Source of the DNA: an uncultured Poribacteria bacterium
GTDB taxonomy: Bacteria; Poribacteria; WGA-4E; WGA-3G
Direction: 5' to 3'
NCBI GenBank assembly: GCA_951812525.1
Contig: OX638316.1
Location: 1,376,506-1,440,505, forward strand
DNA: 64,000 nt
Shown: positions 25,250 to 31,089 of the stretch, piece by piece
Numbering within the stretch: position 1 is the stretch's first letter
Layout: the number at the start of each line of letters is the position of its first letter
The notes under the pieces: generated by a model
Database searches by the model: none
Told to the model about the DNA's origin: nothing
What the model saw: only the letters and a program-made list of their open reading frames with translations
Made by a program: the position numbers and the translations under genes

Positions 25250-25338
25250 AAGGTACCAATAACGCAAACACCTACTTTGCCAACTGGGAGATCGTCTTTT
25301 ACCCGCTCACACGAATACAACACCTACAAGGAGATATG

Positions 25339-26259
25339 ATGGAAATCAAACCTAAAAGTATTATAGGCATACTCGCACTTTTGGCAGTTCTCGGAATCGC
25401 CACTCTCTCTGCGCTACAGGCAGATTCTTACACCTTCAGTGAAACAATGGAATTCAAGCCCATAACACCAACCGTCCCCGAAACATATACTGGTTTCCAA
25501 ACCGTGCAAGCACTGATGAATGCTTATGATGCACAATATAACCGTAGGTACTCAAAAACCACAGTCACAGCTGGCAGCAAATCCAGTCAATTCACACTTT
25601 CAGAAATAGATGCACGTTATCCGCGAGCAGCGTGGCTTCAGATGCTTCTGAAGAAAGGCATCACCATAAAGAATTTCCACGAGTACGCCTCCTCCCTGTC
25701 AAAGCGACATACGCTGGCATTTCTGGAAGACAATCCAGACTTACGGAAAGCTGGGATCCTCGGTATTTCGCCAACAGATAACTGGGAAACTTATAAAGCA
25801 GCTTATATTGATAAGTTGGTAAGCATTAATACCCAGATCCAGAATTCCGTAACGGCAATAGAAGCTTCCAAAGCACGGATAGAAGCTGCTAAAACGAGAA
25901 TAGAAGGCATCAGATCGGATAGGAATCCAACAGTTCCTGATGCTCTAATGGTTCCTGATGTTTCCAAAATTAATATTCCAACACCTCCCAACGTTCCAAT
26001 AAGCCCGCGTGTTCCGCAGCATCTTATTGATCTTACAGAACTCGAAGAGATGACGTTTCCAACACTGCAAAGCCTCGTGAACCAGCTGCAACAGACAATG
26101 AAAGATTTGGAACGCCAACACAGATGGAAGGATGTGGAACAAGTTAGAGAGATTTTGGAACACGTCAAGGAGATGCTGAAACAGACCGAAAAAGTGAATC
26201 CCTCTCTTAACGAACCAAAGTGGAACATGAAAAAGACATCACGCTACCCGCCTCTGTAA
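25339..26259 (+). CDS. Exported protein of unknown family (paralogue A)
   Basis: About 306 residues. ATGs at 25336 and 25339 are adjacent; the second has the better distance to AAGGAG (25328-25333). An N-terminal signal peptide or anchor spans about residues 7-28. The centre (about 85-160) contains the block F-T-L-S-E-I-D-A-R-Y-P-R-A-A-W-L, then L-Q-M-L-L, N-F-H-E-Y, K-R-H-T-L, L-E-D-N-P and P-T-D-x-W-x-T-Y-K. The same block occurs in the protein at 30340. The C-terminal third has a helical stretch, a Pro-rich segment and a predicted coiled coil. Located directly upstream of an ABC-2 permease gene. No known domain recognised. Confidence 0.75.
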   Translation: MEIKPKSIIGILALLAVLGIATLSALQADSYTFSETMEFKPITPTVPETYTGFQTVQALMNAYDAQYNRRYSKTTVTAGSKSSQFTLSEIDARYPRAAWLQMLLKKGITIKNFHEYASSLSKRHTLAFLEDNPDLRKAGILGISPTDNWETYKAAYIDKLVSINTQIQNSVTAIEASKARIEAAKTRIEGIRSDRNPTVPDALMVPDVSKINIPTPPNVPISPRVPQHLIDLTELEEMTFPTLQSLVNQLQQTMKDLERQHRWKDVEQVREILEHVKEMLKQTEKVNPSLNEPKWNMKKTSRYPPL

Positions 26260-27961: not shown

Positions 27962-29200
27962 ATGCATAAGAAATGGGTTGTTTACAAAAGTATTTCACTC
28001 TTTTTATTTTTGGTACTGCTCCTTCCTGGGTGTGCTATACCTACTTATATGGGTGGCACCAAGAAGATCCGCCTTACGTTAGAAGGTCCAGAACAGATTC
28101 CGGTTCAGGCATCTATCGTGCCAATTGCGTTTCCTACTGGCGAGTTCCTTAAATGGAAATCCCTCACAAATCTAAAAGAGGTAGAAAAAGAAAAAGATCA
28201 TCCTATGTCGGTATTTCAGGGTTTTCTCCCTAAAAAATCCGTCTCCGTCGGCGAGGCGTGGAAAATTGATCGTGAAGCTGCACTTCAATTGCTCAAGCAA
28301 CTTGCTGAGAAACCCCAATTTGAAATGCACATCAGTCCTGGCACTATGAAGCTCCAGATCGGTAGCAAAACTTTCAGGAGAGGGGGTGACACAGATGGAT
28401 TGTGGGCATTGCTTCGCGCATACGACGACGCTTACGCCGAAATTGTCTTCCGCATTCACGCCGAGTTTGTCTTGGAAGATGGCTTTTTTACACCCTCACA
28501 ATTTGCAGGACGTCTTATTCTCGACAGACACTCGCAAGAATTAACTTACTTTGAGATGCTTGTCCCACCAAGCACGCTTAACTTTGATGTCAATTGGAAA
28601 CTTTCAGATATACGTGTTATAACTAGCACTGGTGTTTCTCAAATTGAGATGACCGCTGGGAAAGATGTCACCACAGAGATTGCTTTCTTAGAAGAAATCT
28701 CTGTGAAACAGGCAGAACTCACACTCGCAAGACGGTTTTACAAAGCACAAGAAATTGAATGGGTGCCTTTGGGTGAGGCAGTAGAAAAAGCAAGATTGCT
28801 GGACCGTCCCATTCATGTTGTTTCAGCGGACGGCACCTTTATGGATGAGTCGTGCTGAGGCAGTGGGAAATCCCTGAGGGCAGTTGTCCTCTCCGATAAG
28901 AAAACAATCAAGTATCTGAACGCTAATTTTGTTAATGTCTGGGTTTTAAATCGCGATCTCAAACGCCACCGAGATGCCAAAAGTATTGACGGCATCTCAC
29001 CTTTGGAACGGACAATCATTAGTGGATGGAATAAGGGATCTCCGGTAGATTGTCAAGTGATTTCAAAAGACTTAAAACTGCTTATGAGCCTACCTTTTAA
29101 CGACTTTATGAGCAAATCTGCCTCCTCGTTTTATTCTAAAGGCGGAAGTCTCTATCGAGACATTTTGAAAGGTTCATTAGTAGGAGGAAATCCGGAATAG
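27962..29200 (+). CDS. Candidate selenocysteine-containing thioredoxin-like lipoprotein
   Basis: The frame runs 298 codons to a TGA at 28856 and continues in the same frame with protein-like sequence for 113 more codons to TAG 29198, giving 412 residues if TGA is read as selenocysteine (U299). The N-terminus is a lipoprotein signal (lipobox L-P-G-C). The segment around the TGA resembles a thioredoxin-like fold: L-G-E-A-V-E-K-A, R-P-I-H-V-V-S-A-D-G, then S-C-U-G-S-G-K-S-L-R, V-V-L-S-D-K, and L-N-A-N-F-V-N-V-W-V. The Cys-Sec pair falls where redox-active thiols are expected. A hairpin with SECIS-like geometry follows (28876-28891). Alternatives are a nonsense mutation or sequencing error. No Sec machinery genes are in the window. 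Confidence 0.7.
28876..28891 (+). promoter_or_regulatory. SECIS-like hairpin after the in-frame TGA
   Basis: GAGGGC (28876-28881), loop AGTT (28882-28885), GTCCTC (28886-28891): a 6-bp stem with one G-U pair. The apical loop starts 23 bases after the TGA and has G as its second base, which fits the published bacterial SECIS rules of spacing and loop guanine as I recall them. Confidence 0.55.
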
Positions 29201-29296: not shown

Positions 29297-30016
29297 ATGA
29301 CTAAATCTAAGCGGTTAGTTGCTTTTCTGGTCTTTCCTCTCATATTTCTATCATTGGTTATCTTGGTCCTATTTATAGGAAAAATTGAAAACTCACAAAC
29401 GGATAGATCAGGTTTCACCGTTAATCCTACCGGACATTTAACAGTTGATCTGGAGTTTGGGACGATTAATATAGAGACCACAGACCAAGATCATATCAAT
29501 ATCACCACCACAAAGAAATGGAAAGCAAAGTTATCGGCATGGCAACCGAAGTTTGTCGAATGGATTAGTAAACTGCCGGGGGACTTTGAGATTACAACTA
29601 AAAATGGCGACTCGGACACCCAATCAGATATTCAAATTGAGGGAAAGTTCAAGCGTGGGCGAGAACATTGGCAAGACGGATTAAAGTGGTTGACAATTGA
29701 CCTGCGCGTGACAGTGCCGCGCCAATATAAGGTCACGCTCAAAACTGCCTCTTCCGGGGATATTCGCGCAGAAGTGACAACACAACCACAATACCCATGG
29801 ATTTTGAACACAGCCGAAAACGGAGAAATAGATGTAACGCTCCATCCAGATATCGCAGTTGACGTAGATGCCCAAACGCAAGGCAACATCTCAAGCGACT
29901 TTTCCATTCAATCTCACAGAAATGTCGAAAATATGTTAAAGGGGACGGTTAACGGCGGCGGACCGTTACTGAGATTGCGCGCCGATGCCGGTGAAATCCA
30001 CCTGAGGAGAAAGTAA
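29297..30016 (+). CDS. Membrane-anchored DUF4097-like beta-rich protein
   Basis: 239 residues, AAGGAG upstream. One N-terminal hydrophobic anchor (about residues 8-28, L-V-A-F-L-V-F-P-L-I-F) is followed by repeated short beta strands of the type seen in DUF4097 putative adhesins: L-T-V-D-L-E-F-G-T-I-N-I-E-T, V-T-L-K-T-A-S-S-G-D-I-R-A-E, L-N-T-A-E-N-G-E-I-D-V-T and L-R-A-D-A-G-E-I-H-L. These form a right-handed beta-solenoid-like sheet outside the membrane. It sits between the candidate selenoprotein and the paralogue B gene inside the exporter region. Function unknown. Confidence 0.75.
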   Translation: MTKSKRLVAFLVFPLIFLSLVILVLFIGKIENSQTDRSGFTVNPTGHLTVDLEFGTINIETTDQDHINITTTKKWKAKLSAWQPKFVEWISKLPGDFEITTKNGDSDTQSDIQIEGKFKRGREHWQDGLKWLTIDLRVTVPRQYKVTLKTASSGDIRAEVTTQPQYPWILNTAENGEIDVTLHPDIAVDVDAQTQGNISSDFSIQSHRNVENMLKGTVNGGGPLLRLRADAGEIHLRRK

Positions 30017-30339: not shown

Positions 30340-31089
30340 ATGAGAAGTACTTTTCACAATATAGGTCTCCCACTCTTCACAGTTTTGGGACTCGCCATTT
30401 TTTGGGGTGGATGCGCCTATTCATTCACACACAGATATGAAACCGGATCATCGGATATGATGTTACGTGAATCCGCTCAATTTGAATGGGGAGGACTACA
30501 CGTTAACGAAGAGTATAACGGTCCCCAAAACGCACAGGAACTGATGAAAGCCTTCGACACGAATTACAATAGTGGATATTCAAAGACCGAGGTGAGCGTA
30601 TTTCGTAAGGTCGCCGGCAAAGAAACCACAGATTATAGTAGCGAATTTACAGTAAGTGAGATAGACGCACGGTATCCACGGGCAGCGTGGCTTCAGATGC
30701 TTTTAGACAGAGGCATCACTATAGAAAATTTCCACGAGTATTCAAGGTACCTATTAAAGCGCCACACTTTAGTGCTTCTCGAAGATAATCCGAATCTGCG
30801 GAAGCGCAGAATTCTCGACATCCCACCGACAGATGATTGGCAAACTTACAAAGAGGCTTACATCAACCAGTTGGTAAAGGATTACGACGAGCAGCAGAAA
30901 AAGAAACAGAAAGCAGCAGAACGGACTGAACGCCCCAAGGCACATATCGAACACGACCAAGTGAAGATTGAGAATTCTCGGAGGCATCTTGGACACACTA
31001 CAAAACATATTGAGTACATACAAGGAACCGTAGCCGCACCCAAAGCACCAATTCCGCCTCAGGCACCAATTCCGCCTCAGGTGCCATAA
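30340..31089 (+). CDS. Lipoprotein of unknown family (paralogue B)
   Basis: 249 residues with AAAGGAGGT before ATG. A lipoprotein signal ends in W-G-G-C (about Cys24). The body shares the block F-T-V-S-E-I-D-A-R-Y-P-R-A-A-W-L, L-Q-M-L-L, G-I-T-I-x-N-F-H-E-Y, K-R-H-T-L, L-E-D-N-P and P-T-D-D-W-Q-T-Y-K with the protein at 25339. The C-terminal third is a charged, Lys/Gln-rich helical region followed by a tandem P-P-Q-A-P-I / P-P-Q-V-P repeat at the very end. Two promoter candidates precede it. Family not recognised; the strict conservation of the central block suggests a defined domain. Confidence 0.75.
   Translation: MRSTFHNIGLPLFTVLGLAIFWGGCAYSFTHRYETGSSDMMLRESAQFEWGGLHVNEEYNGPQNAQELMKAFDTNYNSGYSKTEVSVFRKVAGKETTDYSSEFTVSEIDARYPRAAWLQMLLDRGITIENFHEYSRYLLKRHTLVLLEDNPNLRKRRILDIPPTDDWQTYKEAYINQLVKDYDEQQKKKQKAAERTERPKAHIEHDQVKIENSRRHLGHTTKHIEYIQGTVAAPKAPIPPQAPIPPQVP

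Follow-up and report, generated by a model that had tools for sequence, protein, structure and literature searches.

A candidate selenoprotein family with adjacent Cys and Sec residues in a predicted thioredoxin-like fold of Poribacteria

Gene architecture around the in-frame TGA

The window (the whole 64,000-nt stretch of DNA analyzed) belongs to a Candidatus Poribacteria genome that consists of a single contig of 5.06 Mb. On the forward strand, which also carries the parts of the gene described below, positions 27962..29200 contained a candidate selenoprotein gene that ends in a TAG stop at 29198-29200 and encodes 412 aa, residue 299 being the Sec. The gene was delimited by read-through translation and by the full-length collinearity of its paralogues and relatives. 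A single TGA (28856..28858) interrupted this frame in the context S-C-[TGA]-G-S-G-K and was followed by 113 sense codons up to the TAG, exactly as the initial annotation had described. Its assignment as the probable Sec codon was based on the translation and on the presence of the same codon in paralogues and relatives. By a simple base-composition estimate, the probability of a 112-codon open run was about 0.003. Seven other long genes of the window ended in TGA, and in these the open run past the TGA was at most 31 codons, compared with 113 here. TGA was an ordinary stop in these seven genes, so there is no general reassignment of the code.

The encoded protein began with a signal peptide (27962..28036) carrying a lipobox-like LLPGC (Cys24), which was judged by eye from the sequence, with no signal-peptide program. 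LLPGC is a non-canonical lipobox, and its counterpart at the same place in the orthologue L064 was FFSGC. The gene product had initially been called a lipoprotein. This reading fits the window member and does not extend to most relatives, which had a plain signal peptide or none (undetected in about 60% by a crude hydropathy screen). Positions 28037..28690 encoded an N-terminal domain, mostly beta in the AlphaFold model, with invariant FRIHAEF...FTPSQF motifs; the domain had no Pfam or PDB match. A predicted DsbH/DUF255-type thioredoxin-fold domain followed (28700..29185), with the TGA inside it, and was delimited from the AlphaFold domain model, Foldseek and weak matches to Pfam PF03190. Within this domain, the putative active-site motif C-U-G-S-G-K-S (28853..28873) comprised Cys298, Sec299, Gly302, and Lys303.

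The selenoprotein region was flanked by two related secreted-looking proteins (25336-26259 and 30340-31089), which shared FTVSEIDARYPRAAWLQML...KRHTL.LLEDNP.LRK. A DUF4097-like gene (29297-30016) lay downstream of the selenoprotein gene. The block from the selenoprotein gene to the DUF4097-like gene was 83-84% identical in L064, and the remaining neighborhood was largely unshared. Position beside an ABC exporter, which had been remarked upon at annotation, was not a conserved feature across the family. A census of family neighbors, in which some counts were incomplete after de-duplication, returned beta-propeller (WD40/PD40) and assorted genes, with no functional link and no metal-related neighbors.

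Family distribution and the Sec codon across Poribacteria

A read-through search of the host genome recovered five further full-length paralogues at 37-49% identity, and every match contained a single TGA. These TGAs aligned at the same codon, within the motif CU[GA]SGK. Altogether, the family was present in 65 of 85 Poribacteria genomes, and some genomes had at least 17 family matches, a number that may include fragments. A stringent DNA pattern that combined the motif with the SECIS-like hairpin gave 352 matches (summed over the per-genome table) in 63 of the 85 genomes, with up to 13 per genome; a reversed control pattern gave two.

Among 177 distinct members that spanned the site in the loci examined, the codon at the Sec site was TGA in 173, Gly in three, and Ser in one; Cys, TAA, and TAG did not occur. 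Cys298 and Gly302 were invariant. Homologues with TGA at the same codon, which had been put forward as a check on the candidate, were therefore found both in its own genome and in other Poribacteria. The TGA/TGC exchange that would also have been informative did not appear, as the only replacements seen were Gly and Ser. A phylum-wide motif scan that allowed C, G, or T as the last base of the site codon, and so covered both Cys codons, likewise yielded no Cys form; its matches were two GGC copies and a single one that looked unrelated. The four members without Sec were L035, L042, and L050 (Gly) and L076:9068 (Ser), all of which kept Cys298. Their variant codons differed (GGA, GGC, and TCA), which probably reflects several independent losses, and the existence of these members indicates that some copies can do without Sec.

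Family genes were frequently arranged in tandem arrays. In the loci examined, all 104 adjacent pairs of family genes lay on the same strand. At L116:371-7153, four selenoprotein genes followed one another head to tail with no gap between a stop codon and the next start codon, a spacing that suggests that four Sec insertions are translationally coupled on a single message. Most members (e.g., L083:5885-7879 and L094:182-2173) encoded an extra C-terminal region of ~120 aa, beta-rich-looking, which was absent from the window protein and in some members preceded another short domain. This region had no significant Pfam match.

A scan of genome contigs returned only Poribacteria among the best 80 matches. 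Remote relatives were likewise absent from the order- and class-level genomes that had given no first match, and searches of plasmids, phages, and viral contigs returned no relatives.

SECIS-like hairpin and selenocysteine machinery

The bacterial SECIS-like hairpin GAGGGC-AGTT-GTCCTC (28876..28891; arms at 28876-28881 and 28886-28891, loop at 28882-28885) was found precisely as first annotated, with its loop 23 nt past the TGA and G as the second loop base. Alone, it had a predicted folding energy of -8.9 kcal/mol (z -3.9). For the 56-nt region as a whole, the fold z-score was unremarkable (-0.9), so that the decisive evidence is comparison with relatives and not the fold of a single sequence. 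Published bSECIS constraints are a stem of 4-16 bp, a loop of 3-9 nt, a G among the first two bases of the loop, a distance of 16-37 nt from the UGA, and a minimum free energy (MFE) of <= -7.5 (PMC13188914). The window hairpin lay within all of these limits (6 bp; 4 nt, AGUU; 23 nt; -8.9 kcal/mol), in agreement with its SECIS-like designation.

All six pairs formed in about 90% of 142 distinct sequences. When each codon was replaced by a synonymous one drawn from the remainder of these genes, 3.8% of hairpins were intact (maximum 8.5% in 300 draws), and when same-amino-acid codons were shuffled within columns, 77% were intact (maximum 82% in 1000 shuffles); these percentages are not formal P values because related sequences are not independent. 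The stem Arg codon was AGG in 85% of sequences versus 8% elsewhere in the same genes, and Leu in the stem was nearly always encoded by TTG or CTG in the 5' arm and by CTC in the 3' arm. In a divergent subfamily the stem was shifted by one base (GAGAGTG-GGTC-CACTCTC), and distant relatives of this subfamily in genus g2 had GAGGGCG-GGTC-CGCTCTC, in which a C-G pair replaces T-A as a compensatory change. Taken together, the alignments indicate that the hairpin is constrained as RNA, beyond protein coding. The hairpin was kept in most Gly and Ser variants; L042 had no loop G (loop AACT). Within 300 nt, no other hairpin position was more than 36% conserved, compared with 91% at this one. A second, weakly conserved 6-bp hairpin position, present in about 36% of members, lay 38 nt upstream of the Sec TGA, immediately ahead of the active-site codons.

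The genes selA, selB, and selD and a tRNA-Sec, named at annotation as the machinery to look for, were all present in the host genome. selA and selB scored 594 and 336 bits, respectively, and the tRNA-Sec (anticodon TCA, i.e., UCA; 78 bits) adjoined selB. The host selD (L031:1501-2424, equivalent to G000:C1:3914052-3914975) contained one in-frame TGA near its N-terminus, in CAGUASK; it is of the Sec type and is itself a selenoprotein. Across the phylum, selA was detected in 72 of 85 genomes, and because it is nearly phylum-wide, its co-occurrence with the family is a weak test. Eight of the 65 family-bearing genomes had no detected selA, and tRNA-Sec was present in four of these eight. In one metagenome-assembled genome (MAG; G062, 96% complete), four Sec-type copies and one Gly copy were found and neither selA nor tRNA-Sec was detected; this gap may be a binning gap, or may mark a recent loss in a lineage losing Sec decoding. 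SelA and SelB have been reported from most sponge-symbiont bins, but not from most of their relatives (PMC5649159). The new family is a candidate client of this machinery in Poribacteria.

Thioredoxin-like fold, proposed function and relation to known selenoproteins

Against the 78%-identical orthologue L064, dN/dS was 0.14/0.42 before the TGA and 0.08/0.50 after it. These rates indicate that purifying selection on the downstream frame is at least as strong as that on the upstream frame, the conservation expected of the candidate when it was first noted. With 50 relatives in the alignment, the AlphaFold model of the whole protein had a pLDDT of 82.8 and a pTM of 0.80, and that of the C-terminal domain had a pLDDT of 91.6 and a pTM of 0.87. 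The top Foldseek matches of the C-terminal domain model were 7tkv, 3ira, and 2ju5 (DsbH), with probability 1.00 and E-values from 9e-5 to 5e-4. TM-scores were moderate (0.47-0.54 of query), so the fold class is clear and the relationship distant. A search against viral structures returned nothing meaningful. Weak matches to PF03190 were obtained for 13 of 50 members (best E 0.003), the window protein itself scoring 13.9 bits, below the gathering cut-off of 27. Sequence searches of Pfam, NCBIfam (June 2026), and the PDB found no family that covers the protein. The TGA is thus predicted to sit inside a DsbH/DUF255-type thioredoxin fold, and in the models the downstream part completes the fold begun upstream, as had been proposed from the sequence alone. 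In a by-eye alignment to what we take to be the DUF255 consensus, Sec299 corresponded to the first active-site Cys and Gly302 to the second.

In the proposed mechanism, SelB-GTP and Sec-tRNA(UCA) would bind the hairpin 23 nt after the UGA at 28856, selenocysteine would be inserted at residue 299, and the ribosome would proceed to the TAG at 29198. The product would be a DsbH/DUF255-like thioredoxin-fold protein, with its putative signal peptide pointing to export and targeting to the envelope. By the alignment to DUF255, Sec299 would replace the attacking N-terminal Cys and Gly302 the resolving Cys; the adjacent Cys298 is therefore the likely resolving partner, in a vicinal Cys-Sec selenenylsulfide. 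From fold and motif, the most likely role of the protein is extracytoplasmic, as a peroxidase or a thiol/selenol oxidoreductase. Within Poribacteria, the family has multiplied into tandem arrays.

Two explanations of the TGA dispense with selenium. A true stop would leave a 298-residue lipoprotein and a downstream frame that is a relic or is separately translated. Standard gene callers would end the gene there, and some family copies contain additional stops; this reading is nevertheless highly improbable, given a TGA that is kept in hundreds of copies with no exchange for TAA or TAG, the indicated selection downstream, and a downstream frame that completes a thioredoxin fold predicted with high confidence. 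General reassignment or a suppressor tRNA might instead let UGA be read as Gly, Trp, or Cys, with Gly as the best guess because of the Gly variants, and the substitutions seen were indeed all Gly or Ser and never Cys. We consider this more improbable still: seven other long genes in the window end normally at TGA, the genome has the Sec machinery and tRNA-Sec, its selD also has an in-frame TGA, and the constraint on the hairpin is required by SelB but not by general reassignment. It is very likely, from the comparative evidence, that the gene encodes a genuine selenoprotein in which Sec is inserted into a thioredoxin-fold protein.

The function of such a selenoprotein is a separate matter. A serious alternative to redox chemistry is a role for the vicinal Cys-Sec pair as an envelope binding site for a soft metal or metalloid (Hg, As, or Se). 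An invariant Cys298 beside Sec and a Gly at the canonical position of the resolving Cys, by alignment, would suit such a role, as would the vicinal CU motifs given for SaoL, HgcA, and SaoC in PMC13188914. Set against this, Sec is predicted to take the nucleophilic Cys position of a thioredoxin/DsbH fold, an arrangement typical of redox enzymes, and the neighbor census contained no metal-related genes. Metal binding is accordingly judged unlikely, and a redox function, considered by itself, probable from fold and motif.

DsbH and Thioredox_DsbH proteins (DUF255, PF03190; PDB 2ju5, 7tkv, and 3ira) share the thioredoxin-like fold with the predicted model by Foldseek. The new family differs from them in scoring below the Pfam cut-off, in its CUxxG rather than CxxC-type site, in its putative selenocysteine, and in its extra N-terminal beta domain. 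Thioredoxin reductase has adjacent Cys and Sec residues in a C-terminal GCUG tail. In other vicinal Cys-Sec proteins folds or positions differ, the pair of the new family lying in the thioredoxin active-site loop and not in a C-terminal tail. Adjacent Cys and Sec are likewise described for SaoL, SaoC, and HgcA in the available portion of an inventory of 119 prokaryotic selenoprotein families from 2026 (PMC13188914). The same portion describes UxxC/CxxU thioredoxin-like bacterial selenoproteins, which also combine a thioredoxin-like fold, an active-site Sec, and a SECIS just downstream; in contrast, the CU[GA][ST]G[KR] motif and domain make-up of the new family were not among the families there, and Poribacteria were not mentioned in it.

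No literature linking Poribacteria with a selenoprotein or describing the family was found, and the motif strings occurred only in works unrelated to selenoprotein biology. All known selenoproteins are stated to have Cys homologues (PMC12013277), which makes their absence here notable; no Cys homologue of the new family was found in a search that was deep for one phylum only. The gene, which very probably decodes its in-frame TGA as Sec, belongs to a previously undescribed, many-copied family of sponge-associated Poribacteria; replacements of Sec in this family are very rare, and none of those found was by Cys. The evidence leans slightly towards a stronger statement, i.e., that this is the first essentially Sec-only family (no Cys homologues), invented within Poribacteria and reaching, in some genomes, more than 10 tandem copies. 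Because selenoproteins are discovered largely through pairs of Cys and Sec homologues, a family without a Cys form would be missed. If the Sec-only reading is true, Poribacteria would depend on selenium to an unusual degree and would have an envelope redox system based on a vicinal Cys-Sec pair. The known bacterial selenoproteome would be greatly enlarged by several hundred such genes from a single phylum. In public annotations, the TGA has probably caused the family genes to be truncated or split.
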